NCBI GenBank assembly: GCA_029560585.1
Contig: JAKQKQ010000159.1
Location: 1 to 62,130 of the forward strand
DNA length: 62,130 bases
Direction: 5' to 3'
Source of the DNA: Verrucomicrobiota bacterium
Lineage (GTDB): Bacteria > Verrucomicrobiota > Verrucomicrobiia > JADLBR01
Part shown: one piece after another, positions 3,548 through 28,275 of the stretch
Numbering within the stretch: position 1 is the first letter of the stretch
Layout of the letters: every line of letters begins with the position of its first letter
Program-made: the position numbers and the translations under genes
Notes under the pieces: generated by a model
Databases searched by the model: none
What the model saw: the letters and a program-made list of their open reading frames with translations, nothing else
Told to the model about the DNA's origin: nothing

Positions 3548-3615
3548 ATTATGCTCTAGCTGTTCCCCATTCATATCTTCCAAGGATCTTCCGGTGCGCC
3601 CGCGGCATGCCCGCC

Positions 3616-6400: not shown

Positions 6401-6516
6401 AAGTGGACGAATCATTACCAGTACTCCACCCCGCCCGGCAAATGGATCCGTGTGTGCGAGCGCGCGCTGCCACGTCCGATTTGCAACCCCGGCCGTAGCC
6501 GCCCATCATATCGGGG
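6401..6516. promoter_or_regulatory. Divergent intergenic region between sulfatase and araC-type gene
   Basis: A 116-base gap between two head-to-head starts. It must hold the promoters of both the sulfatase run (minus) and the AraC regulator (plus), and probably the AraC operator. I see no convincing sigma-70 boxes or clear direct repeats, so only the position and layout support this call. Confidence 0.4.
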
Positions 6517-7422
6517 ATGCAGACGCCGCGCGAAGACATCCGCCTCGGCGCGGGCCAGACCTTTCGGCTGCTGCGCTGGAGCCGGAGTGTCACCCGCGTG
6601 GAGGTGGTGCTGGCGCCCGACAAAGCCGCACCGATCCAGGGACACGGTGACCATTGGCATTACCACCCGGAGACCGAACTGACACTCATCCAGAAAGGCG
6701 CGGGCACGCGCTTCGTGGGAGACTACATCGAGCTATTTGAATCGGGCGATCTCGTGCTCATCGGCGCGAACGTCCCGCACTACTGGCATCTGCGGGGTGC
6801 CTCCGCGGGGCTGTCGCTTCAGTGGGACCTGCCGCTTGAGCACGTCATCTGGAGCTTCAACGAGGCGACGCCCCTCAAGGCACTCGCCGAGGCCGCCCGC
6901 CGCGGTCTCCACATCCGCGGTGCGACCGCCAGCGCGATCCGCCTTCTCATGGATCAACTCACCGCCCTCGTCGGGTTGCCACGCCTCGCCCAATTTCTGG
7001 AACTCCTCTCGGTGCTGGCCGCGGCACCCGCGCGGGACATTCGCCCGTTGGCAGCGCATCCGTTCTCCCTCTCTGGAACCGCCGAACAGCAGGAGGCGGT
7101 GCGCCGGGCCGTCAGCTACATAATCGCCAACTACCGCGAGCCAGTGCGGCTGCCCGACCTGCTGCGCCTCACGGGCATGAGCCGCCCCACCTTCGCCCGC
7201 CAATTTCGCAACCACGCGGGCAAGTCCTTCTCGACCTTCCTCAACCAGGTGCGCCTTCAGGCCGTCTGCCGATCCCTCCGCGATTCCGCCGAACCCATCG
7301 GCAACATCGCGCTGGGCAACGGCTTCAACCAGCTGTCGTTCTTCAATCGCCTGTTCCGCCGCGAGTTCGGGATCAGCCCGGGCGCCTATCGGGCGAAATC
7401 GACGGTGGGGCACACGCCGTGA
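6517..7422 (+). CDS. AraC-family transcriptional regulator
   Basis: 301 residues. The N-terminal half is a cupin-like ligand domain (GHGDHWHYHPETELTLIQKG near residues 42-62, then GDLVLIGANVPHYW). The C-terminal hundred residues hold the double helix-turn-helix of the AraC/XylS family: LPDLLRLTGMSRPTFARQF, then IGNIALGNGFNQLSFFNRLF with the usual FRREFGISPGAYR ending. It likely senses a sugar and controls the divergently transcribed sulfatase-isomerase-kinase-aldolase run. ATG at 6517 directly precedes a sensible protein start. The target sites cannot be named from the sequence. Confidence 0.9.
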   Translation: MQTPREDIRLGAGQTFRLLRWSRSVTRVEVVLAPDKAAPIQGHGDHWHYHPETELTLIQKGAGTRFVGDYIELFESGDLVLIGANVPHYWHLRGASAGLSLQWDLPLEHVIWSFNEATPLKALAEAARRGLHIRGATASAIRLLMDQLTALVGLPRLAQFLELLSVLAAAPARDIRPLAAHPFSLSGTAEQQEAVRRAVSYIIANYREPVRLPDLLRLTGMSRPTFARQFRNHAGKSFSTFLNQVRLQAVCRSLRDSAEPIGNIALGNGFNQLSFFNRLFRREFGISPGAYRAKSTVGHTP

Positions 7423-7469
7423 GGCGGGTCACGGATGTGGGGTCAGTCAAACATTTCTGACAAAGCTCA

Positions 7470-7716
7470 TTCACCGCCTGTGTTCGCGGCCGAACTTCAG
7501 ACTGCCCCGCTTCAGCCTCTGGACCTACTGGCTAACATTGCCGCGAGCCCCAGTGCCCAGTTGCTCCGCGATCCGGGCCCGCGGCACGGCGGTCTGCTCC
7601 GTGATTGCCAGAGCTACGGCCGCTTCCACGGCGCAATGCCCGGCCCCGGCCTCAACTCCCGCTCGCCGATACCGAACTCCTCGCGGGCGCTCTCGATGAT
7701 CCGCGCGGCGCGCTGA
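7470..7716 (-). pseudogene. 3' remnant of a RAYT (REP-associated tyrosine transposase)
   Basis: This 310-base gap holds no intact gene. On the minus strand, one frame reads AARIIESAREEFGIG and, after a frameshift, another reads EQTAVPRARIAEQLGTG and then ARGNVSQ before a TAG stop. This matches the usual C-terminal end of RAYT transposases of the IS200-like superfamily (a helix-turn-helix-like tail ending in NVSQ). The catalytic N-terminal part is absent. Just past it, at 7441-7464, lies GTCAGTCAAACATTTCTGAC, a short imperfect palindrome of the kind that borders such elements. Clearly a decayed mobile element. Confidence 0.65.
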
Positions 7717-7732
7717 TGCTTGGGAGCCTCAG

Positions 7733-9433
7733 TTACTTCCTCGCCGCGGGGGTGGGCCAGGCGGACAACAGTTCGTCCAGATCCAGCGACACGATCTTCG
7801 CCGTGCCGCCGCGTGCCACGAACTCTGGCGCAATCGGTGCATCAGGCACCGGGATGTGCGAGAACGCGCCGAACCTCTTTCCGTCGTCTGTAAAAACTTC
7901 CACCAGAGCGCGATCACTGAGCAGGCGGAATCGCACGCGGCCGTCTTTGACCGGCATGGGCATCGCCGCCTTGCCGCTGACGAGGCTCTGCTTGGCCACC
8001 TCGATCACAAAGGGCGTTCCGCGGATGCTCAATTCAATCTCCCTCGCGGTGTTGACGCCGATCTCGGCGCGCATGTCGAAGAACTCCGATTGCACATCCT
8101 CCATCGGGAAGCCCTTGTCGTCGAGCACGCCTGCCGCGATGTGGTGATGCCTCGCGCGGAGCGATTCGATCTCGCGCACCGGCTGCCACGCGAGCCTTGG
8201 GCCCTTCTCTGTTGGGCCGAGAGTCAGATCACACGGAAAGTTCATCATCTGGCTGAAGGGCATGCCCGCGAAGGCCGCGTCACTCATGCGCGCCCAGCCG
8301 AGCTGCACCACGCGGCCACCGGGCATGTCGCTGAAGGTTTGCCCTGCATAAAACGCGCCGCCGTAAGGGCCGTGAAGCATGCCGCTGCGCGGAGTGAACC
8401 TGTGCCCGTCGAAGTCACCCACCTGATATTCGCCGCTGCCGCCGTGCACGATCCACATTGTCTCGCCCGTGCCCTCGACCTTCATCGGGAACAAATCCGG
8501 GCACTCGTAGAAGCCCGCGATGCGGCTTGCGGAGGTCCACTGTTTCAAGTCCGGCGAGGTAAATATGCCCAGCTCGCCCGTTCTTCTCTTCGGGTCCTTC
8601 GGATCAACGGGCAGCTTCTTCCCGCGCGGCGTGCAGTGCAAGATCATCACCCACCGCTGCGTTGGCTGGTGCCAGAAGACTTTGGGATCGCGGTTGTTGT
8701 GCTCCACTTCCGGCAGCACGGGATTGCCCTCGAACTTCGTCCACGTGCAGCCACGGTCGTTGCTGTAGGCGAGGCATTGTGCGCGAGGCGGTCCGGTCGC
8801 GGTGTAAATGAGCACAAGCGGTGGTTCGCTTCCGCGCTGAAAGCCCGACGTGTTCTTCCAATCCACGACGCCCGAGCCCGAGAACATCATGCCTTCCTCG
8901 TCCGCATGGATCGCGATAGGGAGCTCCTGCCAGCGCACGAGATCGCGGCTCACCGCATGGCCCCAGCTCTTGCTGCCGCTTTTCACGCCGTAGGGATGCA
9001 ACTGGTAGAATAGGTGATACTCGCCGCCGAAGTACAGCAGGCCGTTCGGATCGTTGAGCCGCCCGCGGATCGAGCTGAAATGAAACTGTGGCCGCAGCCT
9101 CTCCGAATAGACCGGCTCGCGCGCCTTGACCTCATCCCCGCACTCGATCGCGGCAATCGCTGCCGCCGGACCGCGCAACGTTGCCTCCTTCCCCCGCCAT
9201 GGCGACACATCCACGAACACCCACAGATCCGGCGCCTTACTCGCCACCTCGACTTCACACTCCCGCACCGTCTTCCCCGCGACCTCCAGTCGCACCATCT
9301 GCTTCGGCTCACCATTGCTGATGGGGATGTTGAGGAGTCTTCCGCCGAGTTGTAACGGGCGAGTCGATTCCACCTGTCCGCGAGCTTGTGAGAGGAAGAT
9401 GAGCGCGAGGATGGTCGATCGGATGAGGTTCAC
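7733..9433 (-). CDS. GH32 fructan hydrolase (levanase/inulinase-like), secreted
   Basis: Glycoside hydrolase family 32, which cleaves beta-fructosidic bonds in levan, inulin or sucrose. The diagnostic motifs are in order: LNDPNG near residue 127 (nucleophile Asp), MMFSGSGVVD, NNRDPKVFW (transition-state Asp) and FYECPDLFP (acid/base Glu). The C-terminal beta-sandwich follows from about residue 410. I place the start at GTG 9433, giving NLIRSTILALIFLSQARG as signal peptide. The frame stays open to 9616, but that extra part crosses a palindromic intergenic repeat. The 80-residue stretch between signal and catalytic domain is an extra beta-rich module seen in some secreted members. It stands alone between a RAYT remnant and a sulfatase. 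Confidence 0.9.
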   Translation of the reverse strand: MNLIRSTILALIFLSQARGQVESTRPLQLGGRLLNIPISNGEPKQMVRLEVAGKTVRECEVEVASKAPDLWVFVDVSPWRGKEATLRGPAAAIAAIECGDEVKAREPVYSERLRPQFHFSSIRGRLNDPNGLLYFGGEYHLFYQLHPYGVKSGSKSWGHAVSRDLVRWQELPIAIHADEEGMMFSGSGVVDWKNTSGFQRGSEPPLVLIYTATGPPRAQCLAYSNDRGCTWTKFEGNPVLPEVEHNNRDPKVFWHQPTQRWVMILHCTPRGKKLPVDPKDPKRRTGELGIFTSPDLKQWTSASRIAGFYECPDLFPMKVEGTGETMWIVHGGSGEYQVGDFDGHRFTPRSGMLHGPYGGAFYAGQTFSDMPGGRVVQLGWARMSDAAFAGMPFSQMMNFPCDLTLGPTEKGPRLAWQPVREIESLRARHHHIAAGVLDDKGFPMEDVQSEFFDMRAEIGVNTAREIELSIRGTPFVIEVAKQSLVSGKAAMPMPVKDGRVRFRLLSDRALVEVFTDDGKRFGAFSHIPVPDAPIAPEFVARGGTAKIVSLDLDELLSAWPTPAARK

Positions 9434-9488
9434 AAACTGGCATTTCAGCAGAAAGGGGTCTGGCGAGAATGGCGCCAAGACAAGCAGG

Positions 9489-9538
9489 GTGGCGGAGGCG
9501 TCTCGCCTCCAGGCCAGCGGCGGGACGCCGCTGCCACG
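9489..9538. repeat. Palindromic intergenic repeat
   Basis: Two nested hairpins: GGTGGCGGAGGCGTC with TCTCGCCTCC, then CAGCGGCGGGACGCCGCTG, ending in GCCAC that pairs with the opening GTGGC. It lies upstream of the GH32 gene. The same style of repeat (gene-end hairpins rich in GGGACGCC) recurs at 39,029-39,100. Confidence 0.6.
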
Positions 9539-9640
9539 ATCCCAAACGCCTCTCTTATCGTAGCGCAATTCGGGCCAGCCCTCGATTCTCGACATCGCAC
9601 GTTTTGCGCCAGCCATTGGTGTGGCCCGCGGCTTCGTCGT

Positions 9641-11227
9641 TCAATCCAGCGGGGCCTTCTCGAAATCGGTATCGTTGACCCAGCCGGCCTTGATTTTTTC
9701 GCCGCGCATATAGCGCTCGTAGAAGCCGCGGTGCGCAGGATTCGCGTACGGTTCCGCCTCGAACACGCCCCCGTTGCCGAACATCCGCGGATCCTCCTGC
9801 GCCTTGAGTTCGTCGAAGAGCTGCCCCTTGAGCCGGGCCTTGCGCTCCTGCTGGTCGGGCTGGGCGGCGAGATTCGTGATGCAGTCCGGATCTTTCGCCA
9901 GGTCGTAAAGTTCTTCCCTCACGCGCTTGCCGAAGCACATGGCCCAGTATTTGTCCCGCGGGTCCTTGCGGTGCGCGTCCAAAATGAAAGTCTTCGTCGC
10001 GCCGCCATCGGTGTTGAGATAGCCCGCCTCCGGATTGCCCACGGGCCAGCGCGTTGGCTCAAAGTTGTTCATGTAGAGCCAGCCGTCCTGGAGGATGCTC
10101 CGGATGGGGTAACCCCAGTCGTGCGGACGGCCGGTGTCATGTCGTTCCTGCCCGAGCAGCACGTGATCGCGCGCCGGATTCACGCGCCCGGCCTTTTCCG
10201 AGGCGAAGATGTCCGTGAGGCTGCGGCCCGCGGGGGGCGCCATGCCGGTCTGGTCCCATTTCAGGCCCGCGACATCGATGAACGTCGGCGCGAAATCGAT
10301 GAAGCTCACGTAGTCGGTGACGACGCGGCCCGGCGCGCGGATGCCCCGCTTCCACATCGCGGCGAGCGGCATGTGATTGGAGACCTCGTACTCGTTCCCC
10401 TTCGCGCGCGGAAAGGGCATGCCGTTGTCGGAGGTCACCAGGATCAGCGTGTTGTCCAGCGAGCCGCGCCTCTCAAGATCGGCGAGCATGCGGCCAAGGT
10501 GCGCGTCGAAGTGCTCGACCTCGAGCGCGTAGTCGAGCATATCGTTTCGCACGACTTCATTATCGGGCCAATAGCCCGGTACCCTCTCGATGTCGCCGAT
10601 CTTCTTGCCGCCGATGGATGCACCCGTGCCATATTCGTAGGCGCGGTGCGGCTCGACGCTCCCATACCAGAAGCACCAAGGCTGGCCCTTCGGCGCGGCG
10701 TCGAGGAAGTCCGAGAAGTTGGCGGCATAGTCATTCTTGTTGATGCCCGAGGTGGGCGGGGGCGCGGTGCGCTTATTGAAGGGCCGCCCGGCCATCTCGC
10801 GGGGCTTGCCATCGGCATCGTTCGCGACGCCCGGCGCCCAACCCTTGCATGTCATCCCAACAAAATAGCCGTGGCCCGAGAGCGCCTCGGCGTACGTCTT
10901 GAATTCCGGCGGGAAGAATGCCACGTGGTTGCACGCGGCCTTGAGCTGCCAGGAGTTTCGCCCCGTGAGGATGCATGCGCGCGACGGGGCGCACTTCGCG
11001 TTGGGCGTGTACGCGTTGGCGAACAGCACGCCCTCCCGCGCCACGCGATCGAAGCCGGGGGTGCGGACCCACTTGCAGCCGTACGCCCCGGCATGCGGAT
11101 GCGACCAGTCGTCGGCGATGGCGAAGAGTATGTTGGGCCTGCCCGTGACGGTGGCGGGAGTCTCTCCGGAACAAGCGCAGGCGATGGCGAGCAACTGGGC
11201 GACAAGGAAAGGTGCCTTTTTTATCAT
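9641..11227 (-). CDS. Secreted sulfatase, N-sulfoglucosamine sulfohydrolase-like
   Basis: Sulfatase of about 528 residues. After an export signal ([21 protein letters not shown], with a possible lipobox at AIAC) comes [21 protein letters not shown] and then [13 protein letters not shown], in which Cys79 is the formylglycine position of the C-x-P-S-R signature. [19 protein letters not shown] supplies the conserved Asp-Asn pair. The overall layout, with [11 protein letters not shown]-like and [17 protein letters not shown] segments, is closest to heparan N-sulfatase-type members, but substrate assignment inside this family is unsafe. ATG at 11227 is chosen over 11260 because it starts directly at the signal peptide. 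It follows the next sulfatase by four bases and is probably co-transcribed with it. Confidence 0.9.
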
Positions 11228-11231
11228 CGGT

Positions 11232-13115
11232 TCACTCCTGATCGGACTCTCGTTTTCCAAACTCTATCCAGGCCGGCACGTATTTCACCATCCGGTCAAA
11301 GAAGGTGGCAACGGGATCCTTGAGGTTCATACCGGCGGCCCGGATCGACGGCAATGCCGGTTTTGCCGCCGCCCCAAAACGGTCCAGGACATTCATCGCG
11401 GCGAGCCTCACGAGCGGGGCGTCATGTTTCAGCGCGTCCGTCAGCACGGGCAGGGCGGCGGCGTGGTCGCCGAGATTGCCGATGGCTTCGGCGGCCGCGA
11501 TGCGCACGCTGGGCGATGGATCGGCCATCGCCCGACGAAGCTCGACCTCGGCGGGCCTCGCCCCGTCGCGCAGCGCCACCAGGCCGATCGCGCCCCACCA
11601 GCGCACCGCGGCATCCTTGTCCCCCAGCAACCTGACGAGTTCCGGAACGCGACCGACGTCCATTCGGTTGGCCACCTCCGCCGCGGCCAGCAGTTTGGGC
11701 AACGGGTTCTTCCTCGCGTCGGTGGCGATCTCGTAGGGCGTGCTGCCATCGACGCGGACGACCATCTCGTGCTCGGGCAACAGGCCCAGGTCGCCCGTCT
11801 CGGTCATCCAGCGCGCACACTCGGCCCGCAGTCGCTCCAGCGCGCCACGGCACGACTCGCTGGCGGCGAGGTTGTTGACCTGATAGGGGTCCGCCTCCGT
11901 GTCGTAGAGTTCCTCGACGGGCTTGGTCGTCTGGAAGTAGCGCGCGGCGGGACCGGTGAGTCTGCCGTCGTCGGCGAGCCGTCGCCAGGCCCTCATCGTG
12001 GGCATGGCCTCGGTATAGCTGACGAACTGCGACCACGTGAGGTGCGGCATGAAATTGCGGTGATACTGGTAGCGCGGGTCGCGCACGACCCGCACGATGT
12101 CGAACCGCTCCGCCATCCGGTCGCGGATGGCGTGGACGTACTCACGCGGTCTGGCAGCCCCCTCTCCAAGGAACGCCAAGCCCTGCATGTGCGCGGGCAC
12201 TGTCACCCCGCACAGCGCGAGTATCGTGGGCGCGAAATCCACGAAACTGACCATGCGGTCGGTGGTGGCGCCGGGCGCGGCGGGTGCGAGATGCCTCCAT
12301 TTCTCCGGGAAACGGACCATCAGCGGCACGTGGATGCCACCCTCCCAGATCCACTTTTTCATGCTGGGCAGGCCGGTCCCGTTGTCGCCGAAGAAGAAGA
12401 CGATGGTGTCCTCCGCGAGGCCCCCCTCCTCGAGTTCCCTGAGCCTGTCTCCGATCTGGTAATCCATCGCCGTGATGTTGTCGTAGTAGCGGGCCCAGTC
12501 TCGGCGCACCTCGGGCATATCGGGATGAAATGGCGGGACGGGCGCCCCCGCGGGATCGTGGCGCTGGTCGGGCGCAAGGCGTCGCGTGTTCTGCTGATAC
12601 TTCGGTTCGGGCACCCGGATCTGGCCCTCGTGGCAGACCTCGTGATTGAACACCGCGAAGAACGGCTGGCCCGGCCCCCGATCCTTATAGTGCGCCTTCC
12701 GGCTGCATTCGTCCCACGCCGTCGCCGGCACCGGAAAATTGTAATCGGTCTTGGCGTTGTTGGAGCAGTAATAGCCCGCCGCGCGGAGGTATTCGGTGAA
12801 GCATTTCACGCTGGGTGGCAGCGCCGTGCTCGAGCGCATCCCCTGACTGCCGAGCCGCGTCGGAAAAACGCCGGTGATTAGGCACGAGCGATTGGGCGCA
12901 CAGACGCCGGTGATCCCAAATGCGCGAGTGTACCGCACGGCGCCGGCCGCGAACCGGTCGAGGGTCGGTGTGACGGCGTACTTGTCGCCATAGCAGCCGA
13001 GGTTCGGGCAGATATCCTCGGCGGTGAGCCAGAGGATATTCGGCCTCGCCGTCTCGGCCGCGGACAACTGCGCCGCCCAAAGGGTCAGGACGATGGCGAC
13101 AATGGCGGGCTTCAT
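11232..13115 (-). CDS. Secreted sulfatase with C-terminal HEAT repeats
   Basis: A 627-residue protein with signal peptide [19 protein letters not shown], then a sulfatase domain ([36 protein letters not shown]). The formylglycine site is [12 protein letters not shown]: Cys72 and Arg76 are kept but the usual Ser is Asn (C-A-P-N-R). From about residue 480 to 610 there are HEAT-like repeats ([57 protein letters not shown]). Sulfatase plus HEAT is a combination known from PVC genomes. The repeats probably hold a partner or substrate. It is the upstream partner of the N-sulfatase-like gene, with its stop only a few bases before that start. Confidence 0.9.
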
Positions 13116-13683
13116 AAATCGGTCTGGCTCACATTATACGGTGAGGTCGCACGGGAGCAATCAGGCTAAATCGTGGACCTCGGGCGACACCTTGAAGAAT
13201 CCGCCCGCACATCATCGTCTCTGATGCGCGGCGGGACGGCGCCGAGGGTGATGGGTTGGCGGACAGGATTGTCCGCCCCACGGTCTTGGGCGCGGCGTGA
13301 AATTTCAGGTCGGCCCCGCCGCGCGCCGGATTATTCATGGTGAAACTTCTGAGGGCGGTGGCGTTTTGGACTGCGGTGGCAGAGCGAAGCGGCGGCACCG
13401 CTTTTGCCTCCGGCGGAGCCGAAGCCGATGGTCCCGGCCCGCGCTTCGCGCGCCGCCAAAGCGGTGGCGCCGTCCGGCGGTTGCCGGACTCTGCCACCGC
13501 AGTCCAAAACCTTCGAGGCCCGGATCCTGGGTCGGGGCACGAGCCGGGCCCGCGAACAGCGCCCGAAGTTTCCGACAACCTCGCACCGATCCCCGTCGTT
13601 CCGATACACTTGATTCGGCGCGACCTATATCTCCCAGCGGATTGCCCCGGCATCGAAGAGACGCTGCAGCGATCGGGACTTGT
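13116..13683. other. Long intergenic region with palindromic repeats, no gene
   Basis: A 568-base gap between the sialidase-like and HEAT-sulfatase genes. Open frames exist on both strands but are low-complexity and rich in Arg, Gly and Ala, as expected from GC-rich repeats. The right half is the inverted-repeat element listed separately. At 13324-13347 is a motif (ATTCATGG followed by GAAACT) also present near 21,013-21,037, so it is part of another repeat family. Promoters for the minus-strand sulfatase pair should lie in the left part. Confidence 0.6.
13363..13510. repeat. Large inverted-repeat element (about 148 bp)
   Basis: Perfect 22-base arms at 13363-13384 and 13489-13510 (GTTTTGGACTGCGGTGGCAG... 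facing its complement). Inside them a second arm pair follows at once (GGCACCGCTTT near 13394 against AAAGCGGTGGCG near 13458). The whole element would fold into one long hairpin. It resembles short non-autonomous palindromic elements scattered in PVC genomes. Only one copy of this family is in the window. Confidence 0.7.
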
Positions 13684-14859
13684 CTATTCGACCGCCATGC
13701 TCGCGATGGGTATGATGGCCAGTTCGCCGCTGTTGTGGTTTCCGGGGCGACCGCCGTTGTTAGAGTAGCCGACGTAAAGTTTGCCTTCGTGCTCGGTGGC
13801 GCAGGGATAGGACAGGCCGGCCCGTTCGTGCGATTCGCCGGGGCCATCGGGAAATCGCGCCGGGCGGATGACGAACACCTTGCGGAACAGCGGCTCGCCC
13901 GGCCGAGCCACGGCTATGGTCAACGGGTGGCGGCGACCGCCGCTATTGGCGGTGGTCGTGCAGATGAGGTATCGCTGGCCGGTGCTGAGCATCCCCGCGC
14001 AGGGTTTCGATGTCGCCATCGGCAGGTTACTCGGCGCAGACTTGGTCCAGGTGCGTCCGTAATCCGAGCTCGCCGCGGCAAGCGCCAGCGCCTTCTCGCC
14101 AAAGCGCGCGATGTTCACCACACGCGGGCCGTCCACGATGACGGCGGACTCGCCCCACATCTTCATTCCCGCCGGGGCCGGAATGCCAACGAGGTCCCAC
14201 TTGGTCAGATCATCTCCGTGGCTGATGGCGACGGCCGCGGGGTTGAGGGTCTTCTCCGAAAACTGCCTCGCGAGGATGCCCGGCAGGATCCAGTTGCCAT
14301 CGGCCATCCGCACCGGGGGGTTCAGGGGCCAGAAGCCACGCCCGATGACGACGCCCCGGGGCCGCCATGTCCCGCTGCCCTCATCCAGCGAGTAGGCGCG
14401 GGTGTGGATGTTGCCCATCTTGCCGTGGAACGCCCCGTGGAAGGCCCACAGGGTTCCGCCATGCGAAAGAAAAACGCCGTGGCTGACGGCGAGATCCGTC
14501 GCTTCGGTGCCGGTATCAATGGTGAAAACGTCACCCCATGTCCTGCCACCGTCTTCACTCACACGGCCACGGGCCTCTTCCGAGGCGGTGTTCTCGGCGC
14601 CCTTGTTGTGGCCGAACGAGGCGTAGAGTTTTCCCTTGTGCCAGGCCAGGCTAATGCCGTGCAGCCACGAATAGCCGTCCTTGTCGGGCTCATACCCCTT
14701 GATTATGTGAAACTCCACACCTTTCAGTGCCGGAATGTCGGCGCTCTCCGGCACGGGGATCGCGTCATCCCAGAGCCGGAACGGCGCGTCGGCGCTCCCC
14801 GAAGCAAATGCGGCGGACACGAGCAAAAGGCAGAGGCTGGGTATCATGGCGGGGATCAT
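13684..14859 (-). CDS. Secreted sialidase-like (BNR/Asp-box) glycosidase
   Basis: 391 residues with signal peptide (MIPAMIPSLCLLLVSAAFA). Two Asp-box motifs, SEDGGRTWG and SSDYGRTWT, mark a six-bladed beta-propeller of the sialidase/neuraminidase superfamily, and GYSNNGGRPGNHNSGELAI closes the propeller. Proteins of this type are often called exo-alpha-sialidase, but many act on other sugars or have no proven activity. Its ATG overlaps the stop of the upstream sulfatase (ATGA at 14859-14856), so the two are translationally coupled and likely act on the same glycan in the periplasm or outside. Confidence 0.82.
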   Translation of the reverse strand: MIPAMIPSLCLLLVSAAFASGSADAPFRLWDDAIPVPESADIPALKGVEFHIIKGYEPDKDGYSWLHGISLAWHKGKLYASFGHNKGAENTASEEARGRVSEDGGRTWGDVFTIDTGTEATDLAVSHGVFLSHGGTLWAFHGAFHGKMGNIHTRAYSLDEGSGTWRPRGVVIGRGFWPLNPPVRMADGNWILPGILARQFSEKTLNPAAVAISHGDDLTKWDLVGIPAPAGMKMWGESAVIVDGPRVVNIARFGEKALALAAASSDYGRTWTKSAPSNLPMATSKPCAGMLSTGQRYLICTTTANSGGRRHPLTIAVARPGEPLFRKVFVIRPARFPDGPGESHERAGLSYPCATEHEGKLYVGYSNNGGRPGNHNSGELAIIPIASMAVE

Positions 14860-16925
14860 TTAGGGGCATCGAAGCGCCAAACGCACGGTTCGCCCTGGGC
14901 GGGGCGCATTTCGATGGACTGGATCGCGATGTCACCGGCGTCTCTCGGCGGGGTGAGGCGGAGGTGGATAAGACGTCCCTGGACCGGCAGTTCGGCCCTG
15001 GCCTCCTGCCAGCCGTCTCCCGTGGGCCAGTCAAAGCTGACGGTTTGCCCGGGCGGGAAATCCGCTTGGCCTTGCGCGCGCCACGCAATCGAAGCGGTGC
15101 CGCCTTTTGAAGAGCGCGCTCGAATCACCAAACTCACGGGGCCGGGCAGATCGAGTCCTGTCCGGGCGAGGAATGGCCTCGCGTTCGGCGCGGCCTTGGC
15201 GTCGGGCTTAATGACCAGCGCGCCATCCTTCACGAGCAGCGTCCCAGTGCGGCAGATCCAGCCCTGCACGCTGCCGGGTGGATCGGCGGCCTTTCCCGGT
15301 GCCACAGTTGTCGCGAGCGCGGCATAGCGGGGGTCGATGTGGTCCGCGAAGAACTTGGCATCCTCCTTCACGACCATCGTCGGTAATCCGGTGGGCTGCA
15401 GGGCGTCGCACCAGGCTTTGAGCTTCGCGTCGAGGCGGGCGGCGATTTCCCCGTGTTCGGCAATCAGGTTCCGGGTCTCTTCCCCGGGTGTGGTGACGTC
15501 GAACAGGAAGCGCTCCGTCGCACCGAGGCGGATGAGCTTCCAGGGGAACTCCAGGATGGCGGCCTGACTCCGCCATCGCCAGTACAGCACCTGGTGCGGG
15601 GCGGCCTTGTTCTCGCCGGTGAGGAACGGCATGAGATCGACGCCGTCGAGCCTGTCGTCGTGGGGCAGGCCGGCGAGGGCCACGGCGGTGGAGGCCACGT
15701 CGAGGCTGATGACCGGGTGTTCGTACACGACGCCCGCGGGGATCGTGCCCGGCCACGCGGCGACGAATGGCGTGCGGATGCCGCCGTCGGTCAGCATGCC
15801 CTTCTCGCCCACCAGCGGCAGGTTCAGCGATCCATCCCACGCGCCCTCCTTCGTGGGCGCGCCGTTGTCACCGATAAAAAAGATCAGCGTTTTCTTCTCC
15901 GCTCCGATCGCGCGAAGCTTCTCACGGATCTGGCCGAGGCCGTCGTCCATCGCGGCGATCATCGCGAGCGCCTGGCGTCTCTGGAGCGGCAGGTGCGCGG
16001 GCGTCTTTGAGAACCACGGCTCCGGGGACTCGAGGGGCACGTGCGGCGCGAACCACGCCAGGTAGAGAAACCAGGGTTGCTCCGGCCTCGCTGCACGGCG
16101 ATCAAGGAACGACAACGCCGCCTCCGTCTGGACCACGATGCGGAAGCGGTCGTCGGCGACGAGCCTGGGCGCATCCGCGAACGGCTTCCCATCCAGGCCA
16201 TGGGAGGCATAGAACGACCGCATTTCGCCGCGCCAGTATTCGTCGAAGCCCTGCGCGTGGGGCATGTGGTCGGGCATCACGCGCATCTTTTTGGGGACCC
16301 TTCTGTCGCCGCCGATGTCCAGGTGCCACTTGCCGACGTGTCCGGTGACATAGCCCGCGGGTTTCAGACGCTCCGCGATGGTCAACTCCTCCAGCGGCAG
16401 CGGGCCCTTGGTGTTGTCCTCCACGCCAAAGCGCGTCTGATACCGCCCCGTGATCACCCCGGCGCGCGAGGGCACGCACTGCGGCGCGCTCACGTAGCCG
16501 CGCGCGAACCGCACCCCATCGGCGGCCAGGCGATCGAGATTCGGCGTACGGATGTCCTTGTCCACGCCCTGCGCGCCGAGGTCGGCCCATCCGTGGTCGT
16601 CGGAGTAGATCAGCAGGACATTCGGCCTGGGCGCGCCGGCGGAAAAACCAACCGCGGACAGGGTCGCCACGAGCGCGATGGTTAGCCTGCATATTTCACG
16701 CTTCCGCGTGAAATATGCAGGCTCAAAGGAAAACCGCGCTCCGGAAAACGCGATTCTGGAGGGTCTGGGTCCACCGGTCCGCGAAACACACTCTGCATCC
16801 GCTAAAAAGCCCAGTCTTTGCCTGACCTTTCCCAATAGATGGTTTTCATGGCGCGGTTTTCCCAGAGCCCGGAATTTCACAGCCGACAGACTGTGAAATA
16901 TCCGGGTTAGCAAAGTCCGAATCAT
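14856..16925 (-). CDS. Secreted sulfatase with in-frame repeat insertion in its signal peptide
   Basis: ATG at 16925 follows a good ribosome-binding site (TAGGAGAG). The first residues MIRTLL and the later TIALVATLSAVGFSAG together form a perfect signal peptide, but 75 codons of foreign sequence (16680-16911) separate them. The sulfatase core is intact: NVLLIYSDDHGWADLG, CVPSRAGVITGR with Cys150 as the formylglycine site, GKWHLDIGG, FFIGDNGAPTKEG. About 130 extra residues at the C-terminus (from KFFADHIDPRYAAL on) form a beta-rich module. Whether the protein is still exported is doubtful. The frame is open to 17291, but that part is repeats. Coupled to the sialidase-like gene by an ATGA overlap. 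Confidence 0.88.
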   Translation of the reverse strand: MIRTLLTRIFHSLSAVKFRALGKPRHENHLLGKVRQRLGFLADAECVSRTGGPRPSRIAFSGARFSFEPAYFTRKREICRLTIALVATLSAVGFSAGAPRPNVLLIYSDDHGWADLGAQGVDKDIRTPNLDRLAADGVRFARGYVSAPQCVPSRAGVITGRYQTRFGVEDNTKGPLPLEELTIAERLKPAGYVTGHVGKWHLDIGGDRRVPKKMRVMPDHMPHAQGFDEYWRGEMRSFYASHGLDGKPFADAPRLVADDRFRIVVQTEAALSFLDRRAARPEQPWFLYLAWFAPHVPLESPEPWFSKTPAHLPLQRRQALAMIAAMDDGLGQIREKLRAIGAEKKTLIFFIGDNGAPTKEGAWDGSLNLPLVGEKGMLTDGGIRTPFVAAWPGTIPAGVVYEHPVISLDVASTAVALAGLPHDDRLDGVDLMPFLTGENKAAPHQVLYWRWRSQAAILEFPWKLIRLGATERFLFDVTTPGEETRNLIAEHGEIAARLDAKLKAWCDALQPTGLPTMVVKEDAKFFADHIDPRYAALATTVAPGKAADPPGSVQGWICRTGTLLVKDGALVIKPDAKAAPNARPFLARTGLDLPGPVSLVIRARSSKGGTASIAWRAQGQADFPPGQTVSFDWPTGDGWQEARAELPVQGRLIHLRLTPPRDAGDIAIQSIEMRPAQGEPCVWRFDAPK
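16680..16911 (-). repeat. 225-bp interspersed element inside the sulfatase signal peptide
   Basis: Bounded by the direct repeat GGTTAGC (16680-16686 and 16905-16911). Removing one repeat copy plus the interior (225 bases) restores the reading MIRTLLTIALVATLSAVGF. One end folds as GCCTGCATATTTCACGC / GCGTGAAATATGCAGGC; the other as ATTTCACAG / CTGTGAAAT. The same element, about 90% alike by eye, starts at 61,959 on the plus strand. It is the size of a REPIN or MITE and carries no transposase. Length divisible by three and no stop in the sulfatase frame. Confidence 0.85.
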
Positions 16926-17310
16926 AGCCACTCTCCTATCACTGGCATCTCCGGCGGAAGACCCGCAGGCGATCCATCGTCCGGGATACTGCCGCGCGAG
17001 CCCGGCCAGTGTCAGACAAAAAGCGCGCATCGACACGCGCCCCCAAACTGACTCGAAGACGTGGATGCCGGGCAGTAGGAGCCTGCTTGCAGGCGATTGG
17101 ATGCGCGAATCGCGCGCAAGCGCGCTCCTACGTCTCATTTTCACCCCCGGTGGTCCGGCAGCCGCCGGATGGGATCTCTCTTGAAAATGGGAATCCCTGT
17201 AGGCTGGGCGGCCCCGCAGCGCGGGGCATGCGATTTCGCCCCATGCATCCCCTCGCCGGGCGATGGTGCCCCGTCCGGGGCACAGACCCAAGATGAAGAT
17301 GGTCGCGCGT
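16926..17310. other. Intergenic region upstream of the sulfatase, with repeats
   Basis: A 385-base stretch between the sulfatase start and the tRNA-Met. It holds a copy of the GTAGGAGCCTGCTTGC repeat (17075-17131), a tail with TCCGGCAGCCGCCGGATGGG also found near 38,920-38,945, and GC-rich sequence at 17200-17290. The sulfatase promoter should be near its left end. No gene is visible. Confidence 0.55.
17075..17131. repeat. Interspersed palindromic repeat, family 1 (copy 1 of 5)
   Basis: Two hairpins in a row: GAGCCTGCTTGCAGGC and CGCGCGCAAGCGCGCTCC, the outer ends GTAGGAG and CTCCTAC also pairing. Followed by GTCTCATTTTCACCCCCGG, which recurs with the other copies. Other copies: 21,634, 28,361, 34,588 and 38,832. 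Confidence 0.85.
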
Positions 17311-21777: not shown

Positions 21778-22716
21778 CTACGGCTTTGGATCCGATGCGG
21801 CGGCGCCCGCATCCATCCCGGCCAGCTTGACGCCACGGCGCCGCAGGTAGGCGTTCCAGGCATCCATCGTCCCGCGGTCGGGAGGTTTCACCGAATCGGG
21901 GAGGCGCGGGGTCAGCCCAAAGCGCCGGAGTTTGCCCCTCCACAGGTCGAAGTACGGCAGCAGCTCGACCCCGATCAGGTGCGGCAACTCCGCGGCGATG
22001 GCGGCGATGCCATCGAGATGATCATCGCGGGCATTGTGACCCGGGATCATGGGGCAGCGGAGCAAGATCCTCGCCCCGGCGGCGTGCAGTTTCTTGAGAT
22101 TGTCGAGGATGACGCCGTTGGAGACCCCGGTGAACTCGTAGTGCTTCTTCGGGTCAGTCTCTTTGAAGTCGTACAGCCAGAGATCCACGAGCGGCACGAG
22201 CGGCTCGATCGATGCCCACTCGCCATAGCCGGAGGTCTCGACGCACGCGTGGATGCCGTGCGCGCGGGCCTCGCAGAGCAAGGCCTCACAAAAACCTGGG
22301 TTGAACAGCGGGTCGCCCCCGGAGAGTGTCATGCCGCCCCCGGATGCCTCGTAGTAGTCCCTGTCGCGGAGCACGACCGCCATGATTTCCTCGGTCGTGA
22401 CCTCGCGGCCGACGGCCTCCAGCGCCCGGGCATCGCACGTCGGCACGCACTCGAGCCGCTGGTTGCACCGGGGCCACTCGAGATGCGCCTTGCCCTCCCG
22501 GCCTACCTTGAGGGCCTCGGGTTTGCAGGCCGGAAAACACGCGCCGCAGGCGATACAGCGCTGCTCCGTGTAAGAGAGCTGGGGCTCGGGGCTGATGCTC
22601 TCGGGGTTGCTGCACCAGAGGCATCGCAGCGGGCAACCCTTCATGAAGACGGTGGTCCGGATGCCGGGCCCATCGTGGATGGAGAATCGCTGGATGTCGA
22701 AGATGCGCTGCCTCAT
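21778..22716 (-). CDS. Glycyl-radical enzyme activating enzyme (radical SAM)
   Basis: 312 residues. The radical-SAM cluster motif is CPLRCLWC (Cys28, Cys32, Cys35), preceded by the family start IFDIQRFSIHDGPGIRTTVF. Unlike the short PflA, it has the extra ferredoxin-like insert: CIACGACFPAC (Cys54-64) and a second set, Cys84, Cys90 and Cys94. SGGDPLFNP and YDFKETDPKKHYEFTG are also typical. It generates the glycyl radical on a partner enzyme by H abstraction with 5'-deoxyadenosyl radical. The partner is the upstream glycyl radical enzyme, separated here by a 226-base gap with an inverted repeat. No signal peptide is present, so activation is cytoplasmic. Confidence 0.93.
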   Translation of the reverse strand: MRQRIFDIQRFSIHDGPGIRTTVFMKGCPLRCLWCSNPESISPEPQLSYTEQRCIACGACFPACKPEALKVGREGKAHLEWPRCNQRLECVPTCDARALEAVGREVTTEEIMAVVLRDRDYYEASGGGMTLSGGDPLFNPGFCEALLCEARAHGIHACVETSGYGEWASIEPLVPLVDLWLYDFKETDPKKHYEFTGVSNGVILDNLKKLHAAGARILLRCPMIPGHNARDDHLDGIAAIAAELPHLIGVELLPYFDLWRGKLRRFGLTPRLPDSVKPPDRGTMDAWNAYLRRRGVKLAGMDAGAAASDPKP

Positions 22717-22942: not shown

Positions 22943-25378
22943 TCACATGTGCTCCATCCTCGCGATGATATCCTCCTGGATCTCGGGGGTGAGGCGAACG
23001 AAGAACTCCGAGAAACCGGCCACCCGGACAACGAGGTCGGAGTACGCCGCGGGATCCTTCTGGGCGGCCCGGAGCATCGCGGTATCGACGACATTGATCT
23101 GCAGCTCTTGACCCCCGCGCCCGAAGTAGACGTTCAGCATCGTGCGGAGCTTCTGCCGCTGCGCGTCGTCGGCGATCATGCCCTTGTGGAACCGGATGTT
23201 CACCTGATAGCCGCACTGCCAGCTCTTCGCGGAATCCGTCTTGCAGACGGAGTTGAGCACCGCGGTGGGACCGCTGTACTCGCTGCCGACGGACGCGGCC
23301 ATGGAGCTTGCGAGCGGCGTGCCGGCGAGGCGACCATCGGGCGTGGCGGGGGTAACGAGGCCCTGTTTGACGGCGCCGCTGCGCACGACGTGGCTGTTGC
23401 CGAAATGGCTTCCGTCGCGCGGATCGCGACAGATCTCTTTCACGGGGCGGTCGCGCATCGCCTCCACCATCCGGATGACATCGTCTAGCCTCGGGTCGTC
23501 GTTGCCGTGCTTGGGCGCCGCAAGCAACTGCGCGCGCAGGCGCTCGTGGCCCTTGAAGTTGGCCGCACAGGCGGCGGCCAGTTCCTCGAGCGTGGCCTCT
23601 TTCCTTTCGTAGACCACGTCGCGGACCGCGCCCAAGCAGTCCACGGCATTCGCGAAAGCAATGCCGCCGCAGGACAGATAATTGTATTTTGTGCCGGCCG
23701 TCATGTCCCGGCCCTTCTCCACGCATCCCTCGAAAAAACAGGAGGTGAGCGGCGTGACGCCCCATCGCATCTGCGCCTGGAGGGTCTTCATCTCGTTCCC
23801 GTAGGATTGCTCGATGGATCTTCGGACATATGCGGCGACGGCACCAGAGAACGCCTCGAAACTACGCAGTTCGCCCGCCGCGGGCGCGATGCCCTTCCAT
23901 TTCCACTGGCCCCTGTAGCCTTTGCCCGAGGTCATGGCGGCCTCGATCGACGCGAGATAGTTCGCGTTTGCGCCGGGGTTGTAGTACCATTGGCTGGGGA
24001 TGGCCAACTCATTGCAGCCCACCGGGACGTAGTTGAAGGCATCCTCGCGCGCGATGCCCAGCCCCATGAGCGCGTCGGGGATCGCCCTGTCATTCCACAT
24101 CATCGGAAAACACGTGCTGCGCAGAAGGCGAGTGAGGCAGAAATCGAAGAATTTCTGATCAATGTTCGGGTGCCAGCGAATCCAGATGAGGGGCTCGGGC
24201 AAGGAGAGGTTTGTTGCGCCCTCGACAAAGAGCCAACTCAGGCGGTTGGTATGATCGCGGCCATCGGGAGTTGATCCCCCCATGACGAAACCCTGCGTCA
24301 GGTGGTGCTCCGGGCCCCACACGCTGTTGTCGTACATCTTGAGGACGAGATTCTCCGCGAGCCGCACGACCGTGGCGTCATCCAGGCGCCCCGCGCTCAC
24401 GTCGGCCTCGTAGAACGGGAACAGGAGCTGGTCGAGGCGGTCGGGGGTGCAGGAATAGCCCTGTCCTTCGATGTGGATGGCCTGGTGCACGAACCACACC
24501 AGCTGGAGGGCCTCGCGAAAAGTCCCCGGTGGCGAAGTGGCGACTTTCGAGGCGATGCGGGACATCTCGCGCAACTCCGACGCACGGGCCGCGTCGGTGC
24601 AGCGCGCGGCCTCCGATGCCAGGAATTCCCCATAGCGCGCGGCCCATGTTGAGACACCGGCCAGGCAGCGCCCGGCCGCGGTGAGGAATGCCACTTTGTC
24701 GGGATTCGCTTCTCCCTCGATGCGCCGCGCGACGTCGCGCATCAGGCCCTCAAGCCCGACCCGCAGCAACCGGGAGTAGCTCGGGCAGAGGTGACCCTGA
24801 TTGGAAATGAATTTATACGCGAGGGATTCGGGCACTTCGTCAGGCGACTTGTAGGGCGGCAGGCCGCAGATCTCCGTGCGATAGCGGCCCCACATGTTCT
24901 CGTTCATCCAGAAGGCGCGAATCCCCTCGGGAACCTGACCCTTGAGGTGGCCCTTTCGGTCGGGGCGTTCGCCGGTGTAGATGTTGTTCTCGCCGATGCC
25001 CAGTTCCACCATCACGGGCATCGCGCCGGGGCGCTCGCTGATCGAGCCCGCAATGCCATCGCCCTCGCGGAGATAGAGCGGCACCGTCTTGAGATACTCT
25101 TGGAGCGCGAGCCCCTTGCGGACGATCCACGGCTGGTCCACGTTGTCGCGAAAGATCCGCGTAAACACCTCCGCGCGGTGCAGGCCAATGCTTAGGCCCG
25201 AGCGCAGTATGTCGGCCCGAAGCGCTGAGATCGCTGGCACCGACGGGGCCGGCGATTTGCCGGCAAACAGGCGTGCCGCGGGCGCAACACCGGCCAGCGC
25301 CAAGAACGTGCGGCGGGTCATGCCGCCCGGTCGGGGAAACGTCGCACATGCGATTCCCGCTCGCCCTTTCCTCATCAT
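22943..25378 (-). CDS. Glycyl radical enzyme (PFL-like) with twin-arginine signal
   Basis: 811 residues. The glycyl radical loop is RVAGFSEFF with Gly788, followed by the usual LTPEIQEDII. The thiyl-radical Cys is in YVPVGCNELA (Cys455), so GCNE replaces the GCVE seen in dehydratases and lyases and the CC of pyruvate formate-lyase. The rest of the barrel looks intact (PFYEADVSAGRL, LSLPEPLIWIRWHP, NVYFGRGGQELQINVV). Uniquely, the N-terminus reads TRRTFLALAGVAPAARLFAG, a textbook Tat signal. ATG 25378 (or 25375, five bases after AAGAGG) is used; a start at 25321 would keep the signal too. Substrate unknown. The activase is downstream, DeoC upstream. Confidence 0.9.
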   Translation of the reverse strand: MMRKGRAGIACATFPRPGGMTRRTFLALAGVAPAARLFAGKSPAPSVPAISALRADILRSGLSIGLHRAEVFTRIFRDNVDQPWIVRKGLALQEYLKTVPLYLREGDGIAGSISERPGAMPVMVELGIGENNIYTGERPDRKGHLKGQVPEGIRAFWMNENMWGRYRTEICGLPPYKSPDEVPESLAYKFISNQGHLCPSYSRLLRVGLEGLMRDVARRIEGEANPDKVAFLTAAGRCLAGVSTWAARYGEFLASEAARCTDAARASELREMSRIASKVATSPPGTFREALQLVWFVHQAIHIEGQGYSCTPDRLDQLLFPFYEADVSAGRLDDATVVRLAENLVLKMYDNSVWGPEHHLTQGFVMGGSTPDGRDHTNRLSWLFVEGATNLSLPEPLIWIRWHPNIDQKFFDFCLTRLLRSTCFPMMWNDRAIPDALMGLGIAREDAFNYVPVGCNELAIPSQWYYNPGANANYLASIEAAMTSGKGYRGQWKWKGIAPAAGELRSFEAFSGAVAAYVRRSIEQSYGNEMKTLQAQMRWGVTPLTSCFFEGCVEKGRDMTAGTKYNYLSCGGIAFANAVDCLGAVRDVVYERKEATLEELAAACAANFKGHERLRAQLLAAPKHGNDDPRLDDVIRMVEAMRDRPVKEICRDPRDGSHFGNSHVVRSGAVKQGLVTPATPDGRLAGTPLASSMAASVGSEYSGPTAVLNSVCKTDSAKSWQCGYQVNIRFHKGMIADDAQRQKLRTMLNVYFGRGGQELQINVVDTAMLRAAQKDPAAYSDLVVRVAGFSEFFVRLTPEIQEDIIARMEHM

Positions 25379-25437: not shown

Positions 25438-26211
25438 CTAATACGCCCCAGTGGCCAGTTCCTTGGAAATGGTTTCCAGCCGGACGGGTTTCTCTCCGAC
25501 ACCCCGGCGCCTCGCCTCCTCCACGATGGCCTCCGTGGCGGTGGCCCCGATGCGCGATACGCCCAGCGAGCGAACCATGAGAAGGTCATCGAGCGTCCGG
25601 ACGCCTCCCGCGGCCTTGATCTGGACCGCGGGCGCAGCGTGTTTTCGCATCAGCTTCAGATGGGGGACGGTTGCGCCCTTGTAGTTGTACGATCCGTCGG
25701 GCTGCTTCACGAAGCCGTAGCCCGTCGATGTTTTGATAAAGGCGACCCCCGCGGCGGAGCAGATCTCGCAGAGTCGGACAATGTGATCGTCCTTCAGGTA
25801 GTCATTTTCGAATATGACCTTGAGGATGGCACCGGCCGCGCGCACCGCATCGTTGATCGCGCGGACCTCCGCCGAGACGTAGTCCCAGTCACCGCCCAGG
25901 GCCTTGCCGACATTGATGACCATGTCAATTTCGGTGCCCCCGGCGCGGGCGGCCTCCTCGGCCTCGATGACCTTGACGCGGGTGGTGCTGTTCCCATGTG
26001 GAAAACCGATGACGGGACAAACCCCGACGCTGGAGCCGTCGAGCACCTCTCTGGCCAGCGGGATGGAGTAGGGCTTCACGCAGGCGGTGGCGGTATCGTA
26101 CTTGCGGGCCAGCTCGCAGCCCTTTCGGATGTCCGCATCCGTCATCGTCGGATGCAGCAGCGAGTGGTCGATCATTTTGGCGAGATCGCGCAGGGTGATG
26201 GTGTCTTTCAT
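25438..26211 (-). CDS. deoC: Deoxyribose-phosphate aldolase
   Basis: 257 residues, the usual length. It cleaves 2-deoxyribose 5-phosphate to glyceraldehyde 3-phosphate and acetaldehyde. The Schiff-base lysine is in FIKTSTGY (Lys160), the proton-relay lysine in VQIKAAGG (Lys199), and the conserved Asp in IDMVINVG (Asp96). It starts IDHSLLHPTMTDADI. Cytoplasmic. It lies between the oxidoreductase and the glycyl radical enzyme in one minus-strand run headed by a GntR regulator. Its acetaldehyde or a related C2-C3 product suggests breakdown of a deoxysugar. The gene symbol rests on strong motif agreement, but DeoC-like proteins in PVC bacteria can act on other deoxysugar phosphates. Confidence 0.9.
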   Translation of the reverse strand: MKDTITLRDLAKMIDHSLLHPTMTDADIRKGCELARKYDTATACVKPYSIPLAREVLDGSSVGVCPVIGFPHGNSTTRVKVIEAEEAARAGGTEIDMVINVGKALGGDWDYVSAEVRAINDAVRAAGAILKVIFENDYLKDDHIVRLCEICSAAGVAFIKTSTGYGFVKQPDGSYNYKGATVPHLKLMRKHAAPAVQIKAAGGVRTLDDLLMVRSLGVSRIGATATEAIVEEARRRGVGEKPVRLETISKELATGAY

Positions 26212-26294: not shown

Positions 26295-27446
26295 TCAGGG
26301 TTTCACGTCGATCCAGCGGCTCTCGCGGTGGCTCTTGAGGATTGCCTCGCAAAGGACGATCTCGCGATGGCCATCGGCGAAAGTGGGGAACGTGGGCGGG
26401 GCGGCGAAGTCGCCCTTGGCGATGTAACCGTAGAACGCTCGGAAGCATTGTTTGAAGGTGTCCGGGAATCCCTCGGCGTGACCCCCGGGATAGTTGATGA
26501 ACTGCCGCGCCGCATCGGAGACGAGCGATGGATCGCGGATGAGGCTGAGGTTGGGTTCGCCCCGCCGCCCGATCCACATCGTATTCGGTTCCTCGCTGTT
26601 CCACGCGAGCGCGGCCTTCGCGCCGCCGATCTCGAAGCGCAGGCAGTTCTTCCGCCCCGCCGTCACCTGAGAGACCCACAGCACACCCCGCGCCCCGCCC
26701 TTGAAACGGAGCAGCACGCTACCGAAATCTTCGGTGTCGATGGCGACCGGCTCTGTGGCGACGGCCTTCTCCTCCTTGCCCTTGAAGGTCTGAACCTCGC
26801 CCTTCGGTCGCTGGCGCACGGGATGGACCGTCTTCAGGTCGGCGCAGACCGCCTCGACATCCAGGCCCGTGACGGCGTGCATGAGGTCGAGCCAGTGCGT
26901 GCCGATGTCGGCCACGGCGCGCAGTTCCCCGCCCTCTTTCCCGAGCACCCGCCAGTTGTAGTCCGTCGGCAGAAGCAACCAGTCCTGCACGTAGTTGCCG
27001 CAGACGGAGAATACCTCGCCGAGATCGCCCCGCCGGATCATTTCTCGCGCCTCGAGGCAGAGCGGGTAGAAGCGGATGTTGTAGTTCACGCCGACGACGA
27101 GGCCCGTCTTCTTTGCGAGCGCGACCAGCTCGGCCGATTCCCTCGAATTCATGGCAAGGGGCTTCTCGCAGAGGACGTGTTTGCCGGCCTCAAGGGCGCG
27201 CTTGGCCATGGCGTAGTGCAGGCGGTTCGGGGTCGTGATATGCACGGCCCCCACGCGCTTGTCCGCGATGACCTCGTCGATGTCCCGGTAAGCCTTCGGA
27301 AGACCGAGGGATTCGGCCGCCCGCTTCGATTCCGCATCGTCCACGCCCAGGATGCCCGCTATCCCCACCCCGGCGCGCTTGAGTCCCTCCACATGCACCG
27401 GGCCGATGAACCCTGCGCCAATAACTGCAACCTCTGTCTTTTTCAT
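26295..27446 (-). CDS. Gfo/Idh/MocA-family oxidoreductase (cytoplasmic)
   Basis: 383 residues with an N-terminal Rossmann fold beginning directly at [21 protein letters not shown], then CEKPLAMN (the EKP motif) and the C-terminal substrate domain with [11 protein letters not shown]. It has no Tat signal, unlike the family member at 2189, so it uses soluble NAD(P) in the cytoplasm. Likely a sugar or inositol dehydrogenase. It starts four bases after the GntR gene stops and precedes deoC, so the three form an operon. Substrate cannot be read from the sequence. Confidence 0.92.
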
Positions 27447-27450
27447 GCGA

Positions 27451-28275
27451 TCAATCCCTCGTCAGTTTGATTTCCGTCCTGTTCTGCCGGTGGTTTAGCC
27501 GGACCGAATTCTCGAGATGGTACCGGTCACCGCGATACAGCAGGACCTGATACCAGACGACCGTGTCGTCTTCCGAAAAACCCGTCCCCTCGACGACCAG
27601 CGCCGCGGCACCGGGCCTGGCGCCCAGCTTGCGCGCCTCGCCCAAATCCATGCCGCGCGCGCCAATCTTCTGCCGCTCCCCGGCGAGCCGCACCCCATAG
27701 CGGCCCTCGAGCAACGCATAGCATGACCCCGCCAGATCGCTCCGCCGAAGGCCGGGCACCATCGATGAGCGGATCCACCGGAACTCCAAAATGACCGGCA
27801 CGCCGTCCGCCAGACGCAGGCGCTCGACGAATATCACCCCTTCCCCCGCCCCAAGACCCATCCCGCCCGCCACCTCCTCCGGCACGTCCCCGCGCGCGAG
27901 CCGCTTGAACTCCAGCACCCGCGTCTCCGGCTCAAGGCCGAGCGCACGCGCGTGACCCGTGAAACTCTCCATCTCGCGCAAGGAGGCGTGCAGGGTCTTG
28001 TTCTCCGCCACGAACATCCCGATCCCCGGCCGATGTTCCAATAGGCCCTCGGCCACCAGATTCGACAGCACCTTGTTCGCGGTCGCGCGACTCACCCCAA
28101 AATCCCGCGCCAGATCGCGCTCCGAGGGAAACCTATCACCGTGTCGCGCGTCGCCGCCCACCAGCCGATCCCGGCACACGCGCGCCAGCTGCCGGTAGAC
28201 CGGCTCGCTCACAACCGCCCCGCCCTCCAGCGAAAGCTTCGCGCCCCCGACCTCGGTCTGCCGCTGCGTTGCCAT
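27451..28275 (-). CDS. GntR-family regulator with UTRA domain (HutC subfamily)
   Basis: 274 residues. Residues 20-90 are a winged helix-turn-helix ([54 protein letters not shown]), the rest a UTRA ligand domain ([22 protein letters not shown], ending with [20 protein letters not shown]). It would repress the downstream oxidoreductase, deoC and glycyl radical genes until a sugar or phosphosugar binds. A palindrome directly upstream of its start is a candidate operator, which would imply autoregulation. First gene of the unit. Confidence 0.92.

Follow-up and report, generated by a model that had tools for sequence, protein, structure and literature searches.

A conserved Tat-type signal points to export of a putative new subfamily of glycyl radical enzymes

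To our knowledge, every glycyl radical enzyme (GRE) studied so far is cytoplasmic and acts alongside the activase from which it receives its radical. The B12-independent glycerol dehydratase (PDB 1r8w) and propanediol dehydratase (5i2a/5i2g) have the GRE fold, a Cys-x-Glu active site and a radical Gly, and share all of these with an 811 aa protein encoded at 22943..25378 (minus strand) of the window, i.e., the whole 62,130 nt stretch of Verrucomicrobiota DNA analysed here. Identity to these dehydratases is about 27%, and the window protein differs from them in carrying a twin-arginine (Tat) signal. The choline TMA-lyase CutC also shares the fold and is among the best fold and sequence matches (about 25–26% identity in the fold search, made with an AlphaFold2 model from 15 sequences; pLDDT 68 and pTM 0.72, sufficient for this search though too low for docking or for judging disulfide geometry), but the window GRE scores below the CutC equivalog cut-off. 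Escherichia coli PflD and YbiW have similar phmmer scores, around 290 bits, and also keep the catalytic Cys and Glu; they branch apart from the clade of the window GRE in the tree, and no Tat match was found among them in the GRE survey described below.

The window protein matches the Pfam families PFL-like (373 bits) and Gly_radical (79 bits), both above the Pfam cut-offs, and the active-site Cys, the C-terminal RVxG Gly and an adjoining activase gene further support its assignment to the GRE superfamily. Among the named GRE equivalogs in NCBIfam it falls under every curated cut-off, and its best match, the broad PFL2-3 subfamily, is also below threshold (422 against 678). The catalytic set is complete (C455, E457 and G788). 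Cys455 lies within VGCNE (codon 24014..24016, minus strand) and aligns with C433 of glycerol dehydratase, while the radical Gly788 lies within RVAGFS (codon 23015..23017, minus strand) and aligns with G763. An earlier note, made from the letters of the window, had placed both residues correctly, and its observation that a Tat-type N-terminus runs in frame into a full GRE was confirmed by the ORF translation and the Pfam domains.

Scanned by pattern, 84,980 species genomes yielded 13 close homologues and one fragment, from Verrucomicrobiota, Lentisphaerota, Planctomycetota and Bacteroidales MAGs. In a tree the GCNE clade, named after its active-site motif, forms one fully supported group, within which the catalytic Cys, Glu and Gly are invariant (Gly readable in 13). 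The equivalents of glycerol dehydratase H164, S282, C433, E435 and G763 are kept in the clade (the last readable in 13), whereas H281 is replaced by Tyr, Y339 by Thr, V434 by Asn and H446-D447 by Asn-Pro in 14 of 14 members. The Cys and Glu of the diol and glycerol dehydratases are thus retained, but the substrate-binding H281 and D447 are Tyr and Pro throughout (14/14), and in this the clade departs from the dehydratase type. The earlier suggestion that GCNE hints at a new substrate class fits these data, GCNE being invariant in the clade and accompanied by the other active-site changes. We read the clade as a new GRE subfamily, set apart by its active-site residues. Radical elimination of the Cys-x-Glu kind is its likely chemistry, and the substrate would not be a simple diol; formation of a 2-deoxy sugar, given a DeoC aldolase downstream in the proposed pathway, is a guess.

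The Tat motif and the following h- and c-regions occupy residues 21–40 (TRRTFLALAGVAPAARLFAG; 25259..25318, minus strand), and residues 20–40 read MTRRTFLALAGVAPAARLFAG. The first ATG pair, at 25378/25375, has a Shine-Dalgarno-like sequence (GAAAGAGG) ahead of it, and a sister gene (L001) has one ahead of a start that lies at a similar distance, so that translation of the precursor probably starts at 25378 or 25375, giving an n-region of about 21 aa; counted from the first ATG, residues 1–20 would cover 25319..25378 (minus strand). A Gfo/Idh-like protein recognised by eye elsewhere in the window (2189–3574, minus strand) carries the Tat signal TRRGFLRATTLGLGAIALAPRSFA, which indicates that the same kind of signal is in use elsewhere in the genome.

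The sequence features of a Tat substrate, RRxFL and an uncharged h-region near the N-terminus, are conserved in the relatives of the window GRE. All 14 members with a readable N-terminus have the motif [ST]RRxFL and an uncharged hydrophobic stretch, and most have an Ala-rich end. One member, L005, is left out of the count, since masking makes its N-terminus read PXXXFLALLGAG. In the Bacteroidales member the sequence, taken from L063, is LSRRQFLHNIAVAGGFG. The arginine pair is invariant while its codons vary (CGC, CGG, CGA and CGT). Across the 14 sequences, charged residues are absent from the first 11 positions after RRx. The 12-residue core from FL onward has three in total, all at its last position, against at least 13 (median 35) in each of 100 variable stretches of 12 columns from the mature protein; this is a contrast rather than a probability because the 14 rows share descent. 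Homologues whose alignment starts near residue 45 and which lack a Tat N-terminus would have spoken against a genuine signal; they were searched for, and every readable homologue had the signal. It is conserved over several phyla, where the earlier note had asked about several species. An assembly or start-site artefact was ruled out, since independent assemblies show the same kind of signal and the GRE start overlaps the upstream gene at two loci, and a chance twin-Arg was ruled out by the invariance of the motif and the charge statistics. Export of the GCNE GREs is, at the level of sequence, well supported.

The window GRE is the fourth gene in a row of five on the minus strand, in the order GntR, Gfo/Idh, DeoC, GRE and activase. 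The first is a GntR-UTRA regulator (27451..28275) and the second a Gfo/Idh/MocA dehydrogenase lacking a signal (26295..27446), both identified by Pfam and recurring near homologues. The DeoC aldolase (25438..26211; TIGR00126, 211 bits against a cut-off of 117) has the motifs KTSTG and IKAAGG, which are also kept in DeoC of L001, and some homologues do not have the full pair as written. DeoC, Gfo/Idh, GntR and the activase recur at other GCNE loci, and a xylose-isomerase-like TIM barrel and a ROK kinase are added at some. No signal was found on the DeoC, Gfo/Idh and ROK partner proteins, so most of the operon would act in the cytoplasm. Sulfatases lie near the GRE at many further loci (L002, L007, L009, L010 and L014 among them), and this recurrence suggests that a Pfam Sulfatase protein of the window (14856..16670, minus strand) belongs to the same pathway. 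At two loci (L079 and L087) a sulfatase gene ends within the GRE start codon, the two codons overlapping, and the sulfatase has a likely secretion signal at its N-terminus. Given this overlap, the Tat signal is likely to be translated, and the GRE is linked to an enzyme that acts outside the cytoplasm.

Sulfatase-like genes stand in a row on the minus strand of the window (4832–6400, 9641–11227 and 14856–16670, with C-x-P-S-R), which suggests that 4832–16670 is a sulfated-glycan locus. Near the GRE of L079, a 1098 aa protein (13987–17283) has a hydrazine-synthase-alpha-like middle domain joined to a sulfatase-modifying (FGE) domain.

The activase gene (21778..22716, minus strand) encodes a radical-SAM protein (NCBIfam TIGR02494, 321 bits against a cut-off of 174) with the leaderless N-terminus MRQRIFDIQRF. 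That the activase has no signal, as first noticed in the window, holds for every copy read. TatC is present in the genome of the window and in 14 of the 15 host genomes; it was not found in G293, the 3.8-Mb MAG of L005. Heme-copper oxidases are encoded by 12 of the 15 hosts, including that of the window, so the periplasm may see oxygen and must have anoxic periods. Some titles of the source records (LacPavin, DeepCast 100m, BS-150m, groundwater), as titles and not measurements, suggest anoxic or stratified waters.

The reading we favour, with somewhat more confidence than doubt, is that the GCNE proteins are a new GRE subfamily whose members receive their radical in the cytoplasm, leave it in folded form through Tat and work outside the inner membrane. 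The precursor would be made and folded in the cytoplasm with its Tat signal, the leaderless activase would load the radical onto G788 there, and the Tat translocon would export the folded, activated enzyme. In an anoxic periplasm, or the planctomycete equivalent, C455 and the likely base E457 would eliminate a group from, or cleave, a small molecule resembling a polyol or sugar by radical chemistry; secreted sulfatases and glycan hydrolases would probably release this substrate. The product would then enter the cell for the co-encoded Gfo/Idh dehydrogenase and DeoC aldolase to act on, joined in other hosts by the TIM-barrel isomerase and ROK kinase. We infer export itself, this order of events and this substrate, and survival of the radical outside is suggested by catalytic residues that are intact and an activase that is cytoplasmic. 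The fuller proposal, which we regard as evenly balanced between right and wrong, is that members of the PVC group and some Bacteroidales load a backbone radical inside the cell, pass the folded GRE through Tat without loss of the radical, and use it on desulfated glycan fragments outside the cytoplasm.

The signal could be real and serve anchoring or dual localisation, leaving an uncleaved pool, membrane-associated or cytoplasmic, that can be re-activated and feeds Gfo/Idh and DeoC. The signal-free activase and remaining operon enzymes are consistent with such a pool, which would also be safer in hosts with heme-copper oxidases. However, the signal ends in an Ala-X-Ala-like site, typical of cleavage, in many GCNE members, and no family-wide conserved second start codon was found 3′ of the signal among the relatives compared; we consider this arrangement unlikely.

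The GRE survey covered 134 unique open frames, mostly from the phylum of the window and that of G295, and a TATFIND-like rule flagged 13 of the 13 readable GCNE members in this set and one other protein (L075). Two more Tat-like N-termini were recognised by eye, outside the rule, in the second GRE of L003 (L077; NRREFLRRSALGTAVAGLGLGG) and in L076 (the same locus as L093; MKRREFLKTLTYAAMWTGG). Thus only three of about 120 other GREs surveyed have a Tat-type signal, and these come from two lineages. In the tree L075/L077 and L076 are placed outside the GCNE clade, on long branches and in unsure positions. GCVE-type GREs in several hosts of GCNE members lack a signal and begin directly at the domain. 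The nearest relatives found for L093 (38–49% identity) are signal-free. GREs have thus probably acquired Tat signals on more than one occasion, and such signals occur in three separate lineages. Acquisition by fusion, a possibility raised in the earlier note, is accordingly consistent with these data as an evolutionary event.

The L077 and L075 proteins (G291:C229 and G293:C81) are 52% identical to each other, form a second GRE lineage with Tat-like N-termini, and have Leu or Ile where the active-site Glu is usual; no match to this type was found at E 1e-90 in 392 Planctomycetota-group genomes. The third Tat-bearing GRE, at 5847–8054 of L093 (G289:C133), is followed by its own activase. The sole other GRE found in the genome of the window (L016, G000:C2) lacks a signal and has a Trp aligned at the position of the active-site Glu (GCQW).

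Another reading is that the signal goes unused and the enzyme is cytoplasmic, its N-terminus being a relic or a neutral fusion. The cytoplasmic location of all studied GREs known to us agrees with this, but RRxFL is invariant and the h-region uncharged while adjacent residues diverge, and like signals occur in separate GRE lineages, making an idle signal improbable. Export by Tat of a protein with no working radical, serving a non-radical role outside, would fit the signal-free activase and the want of any known re-activation there; we rate it as quite improbable, because the family retains the catalytic Cys, Glu and Gly together with the adjoining activase gene. Several GREs of other bacteria are packed in microcompartments, but a targeting peptide of that kind is most implausible here, since no shell-protein family matched among the neighbour proteins scanned and the segment is twin-Arg, uncharged hydrophobic and Ala-rich.

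Export of a folded, active GCNE GRE remains our preferred reading. A literature search of titles and abstracts, most subscription journals lying outside it, turned up no description of an exported GRE, and export, if shown, would be a new way of using GREs. The conserved signal would imply that a protein radical can survive translocation and work where its renewal is impossible. Glycyl radical chemistry would then reach extracytoplasmic metabolism, the system would provide a defined test of Tat cargo limits, and a checkpoint holding back export until activation would be expected. We know of no Tat-exported cofactor enzyme with an oxygen-sensitive backbone radical installed only by a cytoplasmic activase. 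Reductive dehalogenases and periplasmic molybdoenzymes are matured and folded in the cytoplasm and then exported by Tat, and the route proposed for the GCNE GREs, with maturation and folding inside followed by Tat export, resembles theirs.
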